Assembly: GCA_029260535.1 (NCBI GenBank)
Contig: JAJDDA010000201.1
Location: 1-37,901 of the forward strand
From: Phycisphaerales bacterium
Lineage (GTDB): Bacteria; Planctomycetota; Phycisphaerae; Phycisphaerales; UBA1924
DNA: 37,901 bases
Direction: 5' to 3'
Shown here piece by piece: positions 8,526 through 15,260 of the stretch (within the stretch, counting starts at the first letter, position 1; each line of letters starts with the position of its first letter). The notes beneath the pieces were generated by a model. It made no database searches and was not told where the DNA came from. It was given only the letters and a program-made list of their open reading frames with translations. The position numbers and the translations under genes were made by a program.

Positions 8526-9917
8526 TTACGGGAAGATGCCGCGCATCGTGTAGACCTTGCCGATCTGATCGAGGGCCGCGATGTAGGCGGCGGTGCGGAG
8601 GTCGACCTCGTAGCGCTGCTTGGCGACCTGCGTGCGCCGTGCGGCCATCACCATGTGGCGGTTGAGGTCGACGTCAACCTTGTCGACGTCCCAGTAGACG
8701 CTCGATTTGTTCTGGACCCACTCGAAGTAGGAGACGGTCACACCACCGGAGTTGCAGAGGATCGCGGGGAGGATCTCGATGCCGCGCTCGAGGAGCGTGC
8801 GCTCGCCGGCGGGGGTCGTCGGGGCGTTGGCGCCCTCGGCGATGACCTTGGCGTCGATCCACGCTGCGTTCTCGGGGGTGATCATCTGCTCGAGCGCCGC
8901 GGGGATGAGCAGATCGACGGTCGTGCGGTAGAACTCCTCGACGGAGATCGCCTGGGCGCCCTCGTCGGTGTGCTTGCCGGTTTTGGTCGCGCCACCGGCT
9001 TCGCCGAACCCTGCGACACCGCCGGTCTCGGCGACGTGCATCGCGAGGACCTCGCAGTTGAGGCCCTCGTCGTTGCGGATAGCGCCGGTGTGGTCCATGA
9101 CCGCGATGACATTCGCGCCGAGCGCCTGGATGAGCCGGCCCGACCAGGAGCCGACGTTGCCGAAGCCCATGATGCTGACCTTGAGGCCCTTCAACGGCAT
9201 GCCCATATCGGGGAGGATCTCGGAGACGACGTCAACGACGCCCTGACCGGTGGCCTTTTCGCGACCGAGCGAGCCGCCCATATCGACGGGCTTGCCGGTG
9301 ACGACACCCAGCGCGTTGTTGCGCGAGGAGGAGCCGGCCATATTCTGGTAGGTGTCGGCGAACCACGCCATGACCTGCGCGTTGGTGCCGACGTCGGGCG
9401 CGGGGATGTCAACCTCCGGTCCGATGTGGCGGCTGATCGCGGCCATGAAGCGGCGGCTGACGCGCATCAGCTCGTCGTTGTCGAGCGTGCGCGGGTCGCA
9501 CTTGACGCCGCCCTTGCCGCCGCCGAAGGGCACGCGAGCGAGCGAGCACTTCATGGTCATGAGCAGCGCGAGCGCCTTGACATCATCGAGCGAGACGTCG
9601 TTGTGGAAGCGGATGCCGCCCTTGTAGGGGCCCAGCGCGTTGTTGTGCTGGACGCGGTATCCCTTGAAGAGCCTGAACTTCCCGTCGTTCATGCGAACCG
9701 GGAAGTGCACCATGATCTCGTTCTTGGGCTGCGCCAGGATAATCTTGAGATGGTGGGGCAGCTCAAGAATCTCGGCCGCGGTGAGGACCGCGTCGATCGT
9801 CTGGAGGTACAGGTTGTTGGGATCCTGCTTCATCCCGAGCTCATCAAAGATGCTCGCGGAACGGAAGGCGGACGTGCTCGCGCCTTGGGAGGGCGCCTCG
9901 ATTGTTGCTTTGGTCAT
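8526..9917 (-). CDS. gdhA: Glutamate dehydrogenase (Glu/Leu/Phe/Val family)
   Basis: Interconverts glutamate and 2-oxoglutarate plus ammonia. The protein is 463 residues, in the range of hexameric NAD(P)-GDH. Substrate-side residues are visible: K99 in GPYKGGIRF, K123 in MTMKCSLA, the catalytic lysine K135 in PFGGGKGGVK and D175 in PAPDVGTN. The dinucleotide-binding loop is GFGNVG at 251-256, followed by VIAVMDHTGA, with aspartate at the end of the second strand. ATG at 9917 is preferred to GTG at 9926. The gene is monocistronic, with a strong terminator after it. The cofactor (NAD or NADP) cannot be decided by eye. Confidence 0.95.
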   Translation of the reverse strand: MTKATIEAPSQGASTSAFRSASIFDELGMKQDPNNLYLQTIDAVLTAAEILELPHHLKIILAQPKNEIMVHFPVRMNDGKFRLFKGYRVQHNNALGPYKGGIRFHNDVSLDDVKALALLMTMKCSLARVPFGGGKGGVKCDPRTLDNDELMRVSRRFMAAISRHIGPEVDIPAPDVGTNAQVMAWFADTYQNMAGSSSRNNALGVVTGKPVDMGGSLGREKATGQGVVDVVSEILPDMGMPLKGLKVSIMGFGNVGSWSGRLIQALGANVIAVMDHTGAIRNDEGLNCEVLAMHVAETGGVAGFGEAGGATKTGKHTDEGAQAISVEEFYRTTVDLLIPAALEQMITPENAAWIDAKVIAEGANAPTTPAGERTLLERGIEILPAILCNSGGVTVSYFEWVQNKSSVYWDVDKVDVDLNRHMVMAARRTQVAKQRYEVDLRTAAYIAALDQIGKVYTMRGIFP

Positions 9918-10170
9918 GGCTCGCACGCTCGGTTTTATGAAGCGCTCAGTTGTGGCGGGCGGGACTCGAATCCTCCGAGAGCCGTACGCCGCGGAAAAAA
10001 CTGCAGTGAATTTTCAGAGCAAATCAGCCGCATCTCCTTGCGGACAATTCGCTCCGATGCGGGGCGATGATAAGCCTCTTCGGGCAGAAAACCATGCTGA
10101 ATCATTGAAAAATCGCACTTCTCTCGCACCCGGCTCCCGGCCCTCGGGCGAGGTCCGGCTCCCGGTCGGC

Positions 10171-10857
10171 TCACCGCGGGAGTTTCTCGATGTCGTTGTC
10201 GAAACCGGCGAGGATCAGGGTGTCGTCCGGACCCACCACGCTGTCCGGCTGGGGGAGATCGACGACCCGCTCGTCGTAGTTCTCCGCCCCGGTGGCGGTG
10301 GAGGAGGCGACCCGGCGCTTGATCGCCACGATCGTGACCTTGTGCTTGTTCCGGAGGTCGAGATCGGCGAGTTTCTTCCCACGCCACGGCTCGGGGGTGG
10401 GGAGTTGAGCCAGCGCGTACCCGTTGCCGAGCTCGACATGGTCAATGATGAAGGGCATCAGGAGCTTGTGGCTCCAGCGATCGGCGGATTCATCCTCGGG
10501 GCTGACGATCGAGTCGGCTCCGATCCGCTGGAGGATCCTCGCCTGCATCGGGTTGCCCGCCCTGGCGATCACCCGCTTGACGCGGAGCGATTTCAGTAGG
10601 GCGGTGGTCATGGCGGTCGCCTCGAAATTGCGCCCCATGCCCACGATGGCGGTGTCCACCTGGTCGATGCCCTGGAGTTTGAGGGCGGCCTCATCGGTGG
10701 CGTCCATCGCGATCGCGAGGGTGACCTGGTCGCGGAGTTCCTCGACGACCTCCCGGCTCTTGTCGATGCCGATCACCTCGACGCCGGCGCGTGCCAGCGA
10801 GGTCGCCAACCGGGCGCCGAAACGCCCCAATCCGATCACAGTGAATCGTTCAACCAT
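10171..10857 (-). CDS. ktrA: Ktr/Trk potassium uptake regulatory subunit (RCK/TrkA-type)
   Basis: The cytoplasmic gating subunit of a K+ uptake system. It has 228 residues with a single RCK_N plus RCK_C arrangement, so it is KtrA-like rather than the duplicated TrkA. The nucleotide-binding loop is VIGLGRFGARL (residues 7-17) and D32 in GIDKS ends beta-2. The RCK_C part covers about 140-228. The open frame extends far upstream, but that extension is Arg-rich shadow sequence. The real start is ATG at 10857, where homology begins and TACCCT lies 9 nt upstream. It follows the membrane subunit gene with an 86-nt gap. Confidence 0.93.
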   Translation of the reverse strand: MVERFTVIGLGRFGARLATSLARAGVEVIGIDKSREVVEELRDQVTLAIAMDATDEAALKLQGIDQVDTAIVGMGRNFEATAMTTALLKSLRVKRVIARAGNPMQARILQRIGADSIVSPEDESADRWSHKLLMPFIIDHVELGNGYALAQLPTPEPWRGKKLADLDLRNKHKVTIVAIKRRVASSTATGAENYDERVVDLPQPDSVVGPDDTLILAGFDNDIEKLPR

Positions 10858-10866
10858 CGGTGTATC

Positions 10867-10872
10867 AGGGTA
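10867..10872 (-). promoter_or_regulatory. Candidate -10 (TACCCT) for ktrA
   Basis: TACCCT, 9 nt, then ATG of ktrA. It sits in the gap after ktrB, so ktrA may have its own transcript in addition to read-through. Confidence 0.3.
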
Positions 10873-10943
10873 GCCGTTTGTCGCAGACTGTGCCGCGGTG
10901 GGACGGGTTGGAATCCCGCTCCGCTCCGAGGGAGTAGATAAAT

Positions 10944-12704
10944 TTAGTAGATCACCACATCGCCGGTGGGGTACGAATACTGGGCCCGAAGCGCTGGCCG
11001 CACGCTGAAGAGCGCGGCGAAGATCGCGAGCGCCCCGACGCGGCCGATGAACATCGTGACCATGATCGTGATCCGTCCCGCCGGGCTCAATTCGCTCGTG
11101 ATGCCCATCGACAGCCCCGTCGTCCCGAAGGCAGAAACCGCCTCGAAGAGGATCGGCCCCATCTGGCCTCCCTGCACGGCGTGCTCGGTGACGGCGAGCA
11201 CGCCGGCGGAAATCATTGCGATGCCCAGACACAGCGCCAGGATCGTCGCGCACTTGCGCACGATCTCATCGGGAATCCGTCGTCCCCACACCTCGGTCTC
11301 GCCCCGGCCGTGGAGCGTGGACCACACGGTCATCGCCAGGACCGCGAAGACCATAACCTTCACGCCGCCGGCGACCGATCCCGGCGAGCCGCCGATGAAC
11401 ATCAGGAATATCAGCGACAGCTGCGCCAGCAGCCCCATGTCATTCGGAGACACGGTGTTGAACCCCGTTGTCCGCTGGAAAGTCATGACGTGTGCATCGA
11501 GCGCCGCAACCGAAATCGGCACGCCCTCAAGCACGGTCTCCGAGAGCAGAATCGTTCCGTATCCGAATAGGTACAGGCACGCGGTGGTGGTCAGGATGAC
11601 CTTGGTGTTCACGTTGAGCCGGATGAGATGCCGACCCTGCGCCCAGCGGCCCCGGATCCTGGCCCAGGCGACGCGCGCCATGTTGTCGAGCACCGGGAAG
11701 CCGATGCTACCGCAGAGAATCAGCGCCGGGAGGATGGTGTGGACCGTCCAGTGGGTGCGCAACCCCTCGTAACTGTTGGCCGTCGTCGAGAACCCGGCGT
11801 TGCAGAACGACGAGACGGCAAAGAACACGCAGTGGTAGATCCGATCTCCGGTCGACGCGATATCCGGGGCGCCCAGCCACGTCTCAGGCCAGGAAAAATA
11901 CATTGCGACCGCTCCGAGCAGTTCGAGCCCGTGCGTGATGACCACGATGAAGACCACCAGCCGCCCCAGGGAATACTGCCCCGCCCATCCCAGTTCGGTG
12001 GGCTCGCCCAGTGTCTGCGTCGCGCGCACACCAAACGACGAACCGAGCAGCGTGGCGACAACGGCGCCGAAGACCAGGATCCCCAGCGCGCCGAATTGGA
12101 TCCAGATGAGAATGATGACCTGCCCGAAGCGGGTGAATCCCTCGCCGGTTGGGCGGACGGTCAGCCCGGTCTGGCTGATCGCGCTCGTGATGGTAAACGA
12201 GGCGTCGAGCAGGTTGATCGGCTGATCCTCGGGGGTCGAAGCGGGGAGCATCAGCCCCGCCGTCCCCACCACGATCAACGCGAGAAACGATCCGACGAAG
12301 ATGAACCCCGGCGGGAGTTTCTTGTTGCTCACCACAACCAAGTACACACGCAGGGAGGTCACGATCATCAGCGCCGCCGTTGCCAGCGCCAACCCGAACC
12401 ACGACCACGACAGCCCCACGGCGATGACCACCAGCCCCACTTCGGCCGAGTGCGATATCAGAAACCGCCGCTGGGCCTCGCGACCGCCCGAACGCCGCAT
12501 CGAGATGACCATCGGGATCACGAACACGGCTACGGCGACGATCTGGAGAACATGGAGCAGCCCCTGGTTCAGGACCGGCTCACGCCAGCCGAAATGCAGC
12601 AGGGTTGGAACAAAGGCCAGCGTCGCCATAATCTCGCGGGCCAGCAGGATCCGCGGCGCATCACCGGCTTCCTCGCGGACCTTGAGTGTTCGGCGGTTGC
12701 TCAT
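10944..12704 (-). CDS. ktrB: Ktr/Trk-type potassium transporter membrane subunit
   Basis: A K+-translocating subunit of the TrkH/KtrB superfamily with four degenerate M1-P-M2 pore repeats. Selectivity-filter segments with conserved glycines are SAISQTGLTV, SSFCNAGFST, FQRTTGFNTV and SAFGTTGLSM. The conserved GGSPGSVAGGVK segment precedes the fourth repeat. At 586 residues it is longer than typical KtrB (about 450): residues 1-125 carry roughly four extra hydrophobic helices before the first pore repeat. The partner RCK gene lies immediately downstream, so the two form one system. TACGCT lies 8 nt before the ATG. Confidence 0.93.
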   Translation of the reverse strand: MSNRRTLKVREEAGDAPRILLAREIMATLAFVPTLLHFGWREPVLNQGLLHVLQIVAVAVFVIPMVISMRRSGGREAQRRFLISHSAEVGLVVIAVGLSWSWFGLALATAALMIVTSLRVYLVVVSNKKLPPGFIFVGSFLALIVVGTAGLMLPASTPEDQPINLLDASFTITSAISQTGLTVRPTGEGFTRFGQVIILIWIQFGALGILVFGAVVATLLGSSFGVRATQTLGEPTELGWAGQYSLGRLVVFIVVITHGLELLGAVAMYFSWPETWLGAPDIASTGDRIYHCVFFAVSSFCNAGFSTTANSYEGLRTHWTVHTILPALILCGSIGFPVLDNMARVAWARIRGRWAQGRHLIRLNVNTKVILTTTACLYLFGYGTILLSETVLEGVPISVAALDAHVMTFQRTTGFNTVSPNDMGLLAQLSLIFLMFIGGSPGSVAGGVKVMVFAVLAMTVWSTLHGRGETEVWGRRIPDEIVRKCATILALCLGIAMISAGVLAVTEHAVQGGQMGPILFEAVSAFGTTGLSMGITSELSPAGRITIMVTMFIGRVGALAIFAALFSVRPALRAQYSYPTGDVVIY

Positions 12705-12712
12705 ACGCGGTC

Positions 12713-12718
12713 AGCGTA
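12713..12718 (-). promoter_or_regulatory. Candidate -10 (TACGCT) for ktrB
   Basis: TACGCT, 8 nt, then ATG at 12704 on the minus strand. No Shine-Dalgarno. Confidence 0.4.
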
Positions 12719-12732
12719 CCGAAGTCGGGAGG

Positions 12733-14367
12733 TCATCGGTTGGAAACCGCCCCGGCGCCGGCTCCTGTGCGCACCGATTCCCGGAGCAGCCGGGTCGTGG
12801 CGCCGAGCATCCGGACGACCGCGATCCGCGACATCCCGAGCGAATCAGCGATCTCGCTCGGCGTCATCGGGGGTCGATCCGTCAGCCCATGCAGTAGGGT
12901 GATCGCCGCTCTATTCGGTTCAGGCAGGGTCGGCGCCGCCCCGGCGAATCCTGGCGGGAGGCCGAGCCATCTGCACCAGGGGGCGACGCGGCACGTCCAA
13001 TCGGTCAGGCGGGCTTGCGGGGTTTCGCCCGAGCCGCCCCTGGGATCGGGGCGGTCGCGGATCGCCCGCTCGATCGGCGCGAGCGCCTTGTTGATCGCAA
13101 GCCCCGCCGAGGCCGCCAGCCGCCCGCCTCGCGAGGGGTCGAAGTTGGCAGCAGCGCCGATGAGGGCGTCGATCGAGGCATCGTGCGCCAGGACCGCGTG
13201 CGAGGGCGCTAGCGCGGCAAGCGGCGCCCCCAGCCGACCTTCGATCGTGAGCAGCGCCAGTTCGAGTTCCGAACCGACCAACGCAGCGCGGAGGATCGCG
13301 GCATACCGCAGGTCCGCCTCGGCGCGGTCGAGCGCCGCAGCGCTGGGGCCGGACCGCCTTGTTGATCTCGCGATTGCTCCTGCGTTCACAAGCAGCGACC
13401 GGTGCAGGGTCGCGAGTTCCCGTTCAGTCTTCGCGTCGGGCTTCCCGGATTCGTTCGCTGCTTTGATGAATTCACCGATTGTACCCGGCGCCATGAATCT
13501 CGATGACGAATCAGACGGTGGGTTGATCACGATCACGTCGCCGGTCGGCAGCCTCCACCGCTTGAGCCTGCTGAGCCGGCGCTGGTTGACGATCAGCCGG
13601 ATCGCGGCGGGTGTCCGTTCGTACCGATCGGCGAGGACCGAAACGGGGATCGACCGTTGCGCCGCGCGGTCGATGATCCGCCGATCGCGAGGGGGGAGCG
13701 CGCCAGGGATTGCCGGCTCATCTTTCGCGGTGCGTCGGAGCAGTTGCCGCATGGTCTCTCGGCCTCGCCCGGTCCGCCTGGCGAGGCGCTGGGCGGTGTC
13801 GTTCATCGACCACCCGAACCGCCGCATGGCGCGCGCGCCGATCGTGGCGATGCGATCGGATTCGGCGTCATCGATCCGATCAAACGCGCCCGCAGCGCGG
13901 ACGGCCTCGGTGTTGTACTTCTCGTAACTCTCGATTGCGCTCAGCGTGAACGCGAGCCGCACGTTGCCCTCGTCATCGCGGTAGCGCTGCGCGATGAGCC
14001 CTCGACGCCTGGCGCGTTCGATGGTTTTTTTGCTGACATCCCAGCGTTCGAGCAGCGCATCAATCCCCAGGAACGGCGGGAGGTCGCTCACGGTGATCTC
14101 CGCACGATCGCTGATGCGCTCGACAAACGCGGACAGGTCCCCCCGGAGCGCCTCACCAATAATGAGCGTCGGCTCGTCCATCTCCGGTCGGTACCCGGTG
14201 ATGCGGAAGACGACCCAATCTTCCGGATAGGTTCGATCTGGATCGATCTCGCCGGCGAGCGCCGTCGCGGACAGGAGCTGCGCCGCGATGCGTTTCTTCG
14301 GCGCAAAGCGGAGCTGCTGCGCCAGGCCGGCCAGCGCACCGATGCGCAGTTTGCTCAGGCGGGGCAT
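12733..14367 (-). CDS. Divergent sigma-70-like / helix-turn-helix regulatory protein
   Basis: A 544-residue protein with several DNA-binding-like parts. Residues 95-140 look like an excisionase/MerR-type winged helix (LLERWDVSKKTIERARRRG). Residues 175-265 contain further HTH-like helices. Residues 320-435 resemble sigma-70 region 2, with FDPSRGGRLAASAGLAINKA (409-428) aligning to the FDPSRG-F-STYA-WWIRQA pattern; the aromatic residues used for promoter melting are missing. Residues 484-532 resemble region 4 (MTPSEIADSLGMSRIAVVRM in place of the usual LTLEEIGxxLGLTRERVRQI). It may be a degenerate sigma factor or a transcription factor derived from one. ATG at 14367 overlaps the end of mqnA by 13 nt, suggesting translational coupling. 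An in-frame start at 14403 lies deeper in mqnA and is less likely. Confidence 0.65.
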   Translation of the reverse strand: MPRLSKLRIGALAGLAQQLRFAPKKRIAAQLLSATALAGEIDPDRTYPEDWVVFRITGYRPEMDEPTLIIGEALRGDLSAFVERISDRAEITVSDLPPFLGIDALLERWDVSKKTIERARRRGLIAQRYRDDEGNVRLAFTLSAIESYEKYNTEAVRAAGAFDRIDDAESDRIATIGARAMRRFGWSMNDTAQRLARRTGRGRETMRQLLRRTAKDEPAIPGALPPRDRRIIDRAAQRSIPVSVLADRYERTPAAIRLIVNQRRLSRLKRWRLPTGDVIVINPPSDSSSRFMAPGTIGEFIKAANESGKPDAKTERELATLHRSLLVNAGAIARSTRRSGPSAAALDRAEADLRYAAILRAALVGSELELALLTIEGRLGAPLAALAPSHAVLAHDASIDALIGAAANFDPSRGGRLAASAGLAINKALAPIERAIRDRPDPRGGSGETPQARLTDWTCRVAPWCRWLGLPPGFAGAAPTLPEPNRAAITLLHGLTDRPPMTPSEIADSLGMSRIAVVRMLGATTRLLRESVRTGAGAGAVSNR

Positions 14368-15260
14368 GGCGCTGCGCCGGAGCGTTGCTCGGCATCGGCC
14401 CACTCGACTGTACGGCGCTCATCAAAGAGCCCGAGTTCGTGCGCCATGGAATAAAACAACTCGATCGCCTCGCGGTGCGTATCGCCCGGCTCGAAGCAGA
14501 GCAGTTCGCCAAGGTATTTCCGGGCGAGGTCCGTCGGCCATCCCAAACCCGGCGCCTGCGTGTCGACGACCCAGTCGGCGCGCATCGCGTTGTGCCGGCG
14601 CTGGTGGTCCAGCGCCATCTGCGCCAATCGCACCGGCTCGGATTCAAGATGGTCCGTTCGGCACATCCACGCGGCGTACACGAAGGGCAACCCGGTCAAC
14701 TCGCGCCACGCCTCGCCCAGATCGAGCTGGTGCGGGTACCGCACCGCCGGGGCGCTCTCGGTGACGACCTTGTCGCCGATGAGCAGCACCGAGTCCGGCC
14801 ACTCCATCGCCTGTGCGCCGCCCGGTTCTTCGGGGTGCGCCATGCGCTCGCGTGCGTTGAAACCGACAATCTCGGCGTCGATGCCGTGGAGTTTATTGAG
14901 CAAAATGCGGAGGAGCGCCACGGAGGTTCTGCTGTCGGTGTCCGCCCAGACCTTCGTGATGGTTTCGATGGGGTGCACAGAAAAGAGCCGGACGGTGAGC
15001 GTCTCGCCCTCGGACCCGATCATGCCGCAAGGCAGGAGGGTGACGTTGTGCTGCGAGCATTGGGCATCAAAGACCGGCGCGAGCACGACATCGACCGCAT
15101 CGGAATCGAGCATCCCGAGCAGCAGCGAGGGCGCCGCAAGGGTGAGATCGATATCGCCGCAGCCTTCGAGCCCGGCGATCATCGGCCGGGTGTTGAGGTA
15201 GCGGACCGCGCCGATCCGTGCGATGGAGGCCGAGGGTTTGTGTTCAACAATGGTGGGCAT
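14355..15260 (-). CDS. mqnA: Chorismate dehydratase (futalosine menaquinone pathway)
   Basis: MqnA removes water from chorismate to give 3-[(1-carboxyvinyl)oxy]benzoate, the first step of the futalosine route to menaquinone. The protein is 301 residues with a periplasmic-binding-protein-like fold. Landmarks are the N-terminal IGAVRYLNTRPMIAGL, DVVLAPVFDAQC, LLIGDKVV and LGEAWRELTGLPFVYAAW, all typical of the family. ATG at 15260 is preferred because homology starts there and TACGAT lies 6 nt upstream. The longer frame to 15353 would overlap the divergent NeuD-like gene. No other mqn gene is nearby; the next gene, overlapping by 13 nt, is the sigma-like protein. Confidence 0.93.
   Translation of the reverse strand: MPTIVEHKPSASIARIGAVRYLNTRPMIAGLEGCGDIDLTLAAPSLLLGMLDSDAVDVVLAPVFDAQCSQHNVTLLPCGMIGSEGETLTVRLFSVHPIETITKVWADTDSRTSVALLRILLNKLHGIDAEIVGFNARERMAHPEEPGGAQAMEWPDSVLLIGDKVVTESAPAVRYPHQLDLGEAWRELTGLPFVYAAWMCRTDHLESEPVRLAQMALDHQRRHNAMRADWVVDTQAPGLGWPTDLARKYLGELLCFEPGDTHREAIELFYSMAHELGLFDERRTVEWADAEQRSGAAPCPA

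Follow-up and report, generated by a model that had tools for sequence, protein, structure and literature searches.

What defines a sigma factor is that it holds RNA polymerase and reads promoters. The protein described here, encoded in a 37,901-nucleotide stretch of DNA from a Phycisphaerales bacterium (the window), shares homologous regions 1.2, 2 and 4 with the group 1/2 sigma-70 factors SigA, HrdB and RpoS, and intact members of its family match SigA and HrdB at E about 1e-37. However, the family carries an array of helix-turn-helix (HTH) domains of ~270 residues at the N-terminus in place of region 1.1 and has no region 3 in the alignment, and the clade of the window protein is also without the clamp, -10 and -35 residues. 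The short linker between region 2 and region 4 is reminiscent of ECF (group 4) sigma factors, but intact relatives have region 1.2 and SigA-like FSTYA and RVRQIE motifs, and the window protein falls short on models by which other sigma proteins of its genome are recognised. In PhyR of alphaproteobacteria, a sigma-like domain has ceased to act as a sigma factor, according to two papers (PMC5830050, PMC4814048). The window protein has no receiver domain and the partner domains are DNA-binding HTHs; the parallel is therefore one of kind only. Similarly, it resembles MerR/excisionase HTH proteins (HTH_17, PF12728) in a winged HTH at residues 99-151, which is, however, one of several domains in a protein of 544 residues. 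In a literature search whose coverage lay largely outside subscription journals, no description of an N-terminal HTH array joined to a sigma architecture was found, and the main text of the Planctomycetota essential-gene paper on P. limnophila mentions the housekeeping sigma factor only.

The gene lies on the minus strand at 12733-14367 (ATG at 14367, TGA at 12733) and its open reading frame is confirmed as real. The homologues are full-length, and in their comparison the N-terminus, MPRLSKLRIGALAGLAQQLRFAP, agrees with the family consensus, MPRLPRIRIPALADLARQLRFAP, which supports the start at 14367. An earlier reading of the window, made from the sequence only, had given the same interval, to which the strand, minus, is now added. 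The encoded protein consists of an N-terminal domain, a MerR/excisionase HTH, a tandem HTH, sigma-1.2, sigma-2, a short linker and sigma-4, without sigma-3. An AlphaFold2 model of it has a mean pLDDT of 92.5, with the reservation that the underlying alignment includes intact homologues, whose fold the model may inherit.

The sigma-70 ancestry of the protein is firmly supported by homology over regions 1.2, 2 and 4. The family profile matched SigA/HrdB at E about 1e-38 (SigA, E=1.4e-38), and the fold search ranks sigma factors first (probability 1.0, E about 2e-3). In intact relatives, region 1.2 reads LPPYLASLYEIPLLTREQE, region 2 NLRLVVNIAKRH and region 4 TLEEVGQRFGVTKERVRQIE, with a linker lacking region 3 between the last two; when their sigma halves were aligned with the eroded ones, the two proved homologous along their full length (hhalign probability 99.3, E=4e-20). 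In the window protein, the remnant of region 1.2 covers residues 296-335 (13363-13482, minus strand), although it is clear in intact relatives only. The sigma-2 remnant at residues 343-438 (13054-13341, minus) carries clade-specific ETDLRWA-like and FDPSRGGRLAA motifs, with its core-clamp and -10 residues replaced, and the FDPSRGG segment that had first suggested a region 2 is indeed present at residues 409-415. The region-4-like HTH proposed from the sequence was recovered as well: within the sigma-4 remnant (residues 480-535; 12763-12930, minus), which reads AVVRML against RVRQIE of intact relatives, Sigma70_r4 matches residues 480-519 at E=1.3e-4, with 21.9 bits against a cut-off of 24.1 bits.

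The N-terminal half is of a different kind. A domain of ~95 residues (residues 1-95; 14083-14367, minus), for which no Pfam family was found, bears the motif YP.D.VVFRITGYRP...G.AL..DL and precedes the MerR/excisionase-type winged HTH (residues 99-151; 13915-14073, minus). The latter belongs to the HTH_17 type: PF12728 is detected in 60 of 80 family members with a best E-value of 2.3e-13, and R118, G123 and L124 are invariant across the 80 homologues, although the match at residues 102-130 of the window protein itself is weak (E=0.077). The MerR/excisionase domain of the sequence-only reading is thus real at the level of the family, but does not stand at the very start of the protein. It is followed by a tandem HTH (residues 167-270; 13558-13869, minus), HTH_23-like in the family, with a weak match to the Tc3 transposase fold. 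Folded alone, the N-terminal module had no PDB match at E<=0.001 in the fold search; what remained were weak hits to HTH proteins, among them DeoR and the bipartite domain of Tc3 transposase, and a known fold for the module was rejected. In an ORF of 381 residues from another family (L156, f74), the HTH array is missing and an N-terminal domain of ~84 residues is fused straight to a sigma half that looks intact.

Within Planctomycetota, to which the searches were confined, the family is near-universal in Phycisphaerae and occurs in other classes as well. The distribution across Phycisphaerae, proposed as a check by the sequence-only reading, came to 372 of 397 genomes in a class-wide search, nearly always with one match per genome; the gene was found in all 45 genomes of the window's own family and in 52 of 53 from the rest of the order, and it is single-copy in the window's own genome. 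The named relatives are Phycisphaeraceae/Phycisphaerales MAGs. Beyond the class, the query was the N-terminal module only, which keeps ordinary sigma factors out of the count, and full-length modules were detected in f50, f91, f100, f57, f64, f71 and f97, among other families.

What sets the window protein apart is the condition of its sigma half, as it belongs to a clade made up of families f1, f4 and f5. When sigma halves were scanned separately with Pfam, intact Phycisphaerae members matched both Sigma70_r2 and Sigma70_r4 in 36 of 36 cases, whereas among those of f1/f4/f5, the window protein included, Sigma70_r2 was recognised in none of 51 at E<=0.01 and Sigma70_r4 in 31; the window protein gave no Pfam match to Sigma70_r2 even at E<=10. 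Judged by a recognisable Sigma70_r2, the window clade would not be classed as sigma-70 factors by function. The same genome encodes a canonical RpoD and 16 proteins above the Sigma70_r2 cut-off, and the window protein is not among them.

The residues themselves, numbered after E. coli RpoD, against which the numbering was checked, tell a similar story. Intact members retain N383, D/E403, D/E407, G408, N409 and FSTY427-430, along with E, R, R and Q of the region-4 motif KERVRQIE, positions which we take to contact the clamp and the -10 and -35 elements in sigma-70. In f1/f4/f5 these sigma-2 and sigma-4 positions are mostly lost, mostly to alanine or hydrophobic residues, and FSTY becomes LAAP and similar; this comparison, unlike the Pfam counts, hinges on the alignment near a one-residue shift in the window protein. 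The position of Q437 is still basic, being R or K in 39 of 41 sequences of the clade. The window protein thus lacks the aligned clamp-contact and -10 recognition and melting residues of regions 2.1-2.4 and, with RVRQIE changed to AVVRML, also the -35 recognition residues of region 4.2. The absence of aromatic residues in region 2.3, remarked on from the sequence, is borne out by L and A aligned to W433 and W434; it is partly a family trait, since W434 is replaced family-wide and W433, kept in 18 of 18 out-of-class members, persists in about half of the intact Phycisphaerae. As several of these positions vary in sigma factors of other groups too, sequence alone cannot prove that core binding was lost.

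Trees were built with FastTree from the N-terminal module alone and are hence not driven by the sigma half. Families f1, f4 and f5 form one clade (support 0.999, and 0.998 with more sequences), whose members hold 0-2 of 9 and 0-2 of 6 signature residues. Its sister group is f2 (support 0.939), in which three of four members are intact; the remaining one, L090, has a partly eroded sigma half and is a possible intermediate, alone among its intact relatives. Six members of f3 (L072, L093, L144-L147), placed with moderate support (0.734), have lost region 4 wholly and have a damaged region 2 while keeping the N-terminal module, and the same holds for L154 (f112), which comes from another class and is placed among intact relatives. 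A six-frame search of the fetched DNA found no separate sigma-4 for f3 or L154, and a frameshift or a relocated sigma-4 was rejected for these cases. Given the positions of f1/f4/f5, f3 and L154 in the tree, parsimony requires at least three losses.

The eroded sigma half has nevertheless acquired a signature of its own, with the motifs ETDLRWA, FDPxxGGRLAA and DWTR..PW. The last of these is a clade-specific linker motif (residues 453-470 of the window protein; 12958-13011, minus) that includes a tryptophan, W464, invariant in 51 sequences of the eroded clade. In its closest pair (L014/L018), dN/dS is 0.15 for the N-terminal module, 0.22 for sigma-2 and 0.17 for sigma-4, as against 0.01-0.09 in the two pairs of intact members that lie closest; comparisons between most other pairs, being near saturation, carry little weight. 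These values indicate that the sigma half of the eroded clade is under purifying selection and would not be a dead domain.

The neighbouring genes provide a further view of the locus. Upstream, on the same strand, lies the menaquinone biosynthesis gene mqnA (14355-15260; VitK2_biosynth, E=9.8e-35), and the translational coupling proposed from the sequence corresponds to an exact overlap of 13 nt, the ATG at 14367-14365 lying within the end of mqnA (TGA at 14357-14355). Downstream, the potassium uptake gene trkH (10944-12704, minus), which also follows the gene in some relatives, begins 28 nt past the stop codon and is followed by trkA (10171-10860, minus). The whole row of mqnA, the sigma-derived gene, trkH, trkA and glutamate dehydrogenase (8526-15260, minus) recurs in two further loci (L002, L005). 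Among 92 other loci, mqnA adjoins the gene in 45, almost always directly upstream; all of these belong to f1-f5, intact f2 included, or to an unassigned Phycisphaerales MAG, and the adjacency is absent from all other families sampled. Being confined in this way, the pairing should date from within the order and be older than the loss in f1/f4/f5; about the original role of the family it says little. The partner that had seemed odd is therefore a conserved neighbour, although within the order only, and offers no clue to the basic function of the family. A search across the order for an operator in front of mqnA led to its rejection, as no word or dyad stood clearly above shuffled sequences (14 of 46, where the shuffled maximum was 11-13).

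Some observations concern the promoters of homologues elsewhere in the family. In most genomes of f10 and several of f19, a GATAAT motif lies just 5' of the gene, and a well-formed promoter, CTTGAC-N17-GATAAT or a near variant, was seen upstream of the homologue in eight loci (L056, L059, L066, L067, L053, L057, L065 and L088). In these eight loci the -10 element ends ~7-9 nt before the start codon, a spacing that suggests a leaderless mRNA. Position -12 is often G where the family has K/R at the position of sigma-70 Q437. A special GATAAT -10 regulon of the intact sigma was rejected, GATAAT and TATAAT both being few-fold over reversed-pattern controls genome-wide.

Considering ancestry, residue loss, retention, constraint and repeated loss together, we favour the view, with a probability of roughly 0.6, that the window protein was once an alternative sigma-70 factor and has become a DNA-binding regulator. 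Its ancestor would have combined the N-terminal HTH array with sigma-1.2, sigma-2 and sigma-4, a type that persists in most Phycisphaerae and in other Planctomycetota; judging from the intact residues, the array probably chose or strengthened promoters while RNA polymerase was held by sigma-2 and sigma-4. In the ancestor of f1/f4/f5, the residues gripping the beta-prime clamp helices and those reading the -10 and -35 elements would have been replaced, with the N-terminal module, the overall fold and purifying selection kept and new motifs fixed. Core RNA polymerase binding has thus probably been lost in the window clade, where the present role is most likely DNA binding by the N-terminal HTHs, perhaps joined by the C-terminal one, the old sigma-2 body serving as a scaffold or a protein-contact surface; the protein may act as a repressor or an activator without being a sigma subunit.

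The sequence-only reading had left a choice between a new class of sigma factor, an anti-sigma-like competitor and a repressor evolved from a sigma factor. The new class fits the family as a whole, as other lineages keep intact sigma-2 and sigma-4, and a regulator evolved from a sigma factor fits the window protein and its clade best; on an anti-sigma or competitor role the evidence points neither way. That the window protein is still a working sigma factor, highly diverged and with a different core interface and promoter, we consider unlikely. The retained sigma-like fold, the R or K at the Q437 position in 39 of 41 clade members, the sigma-4 recognisable in 31 of 51 and the purifying selection on both halves would all be expected of such a factor, but 0 of 51 sequences reach E<=0.01 with Sigma70_r2, a model cleared by 16 further sigma-type proteins of the genome, the core must presumably accept canonical RpoD as well, and related lineages do without sigma-4 altogether.

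By analogy with PhyR, the sigma-like half could instead bind an anti-sigma factor or another regulator and so free a true sigma factor. A fold kept without its polymerase- and DNA-contact residues and furnished with new motifs is the pattern expected of a mimic, for which PhyR/NepR/EcfG would provide the precedent (PMC5830050, PMC4814048). However, no receiver domain was found in the protein (no such Pfam match at E<=10), the best-conserved part is the DNA-binding module, and none of the conserved neighbours was recognised as an anti-sigma gene, which makes this account rather improbable. It is harder still to believe that the sigma half is merely decaying and non-functional, the N-terminal HTH module alone being of importance. 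The deletion of sigma-4 in f3 and L154 would agree with decay, as would a dN/dS that in the eroded clade exceeds that of the closest intact pairs, but in f1/f4/f5 this half is under purifying selection (0.17-0.22 in the closest pair) and carries near-invariant new motifs clade-wide.

For the family at large, a still tentative proposal, to which we give somewhat less than even odds, is an undescribed sigma class of Planctomycetota with a multi-HTH module, in which at least three lineages independently gave up sigma activity and kept the gene. It would add an alternative sigma architecture to Planctomycetota and, if true, mean that sigma factors have turned into stand-alone transcription regulators more than once. 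Descent alone should not qualify such genes as sigma factors. The intact, partly eroded and fully eroded versions in related lineages form a natural series in which one may ask how a polymerase subunit can turn into a stand-alone regulator, in what order its residues are lost and what role falls to the attached DNA-binding module.
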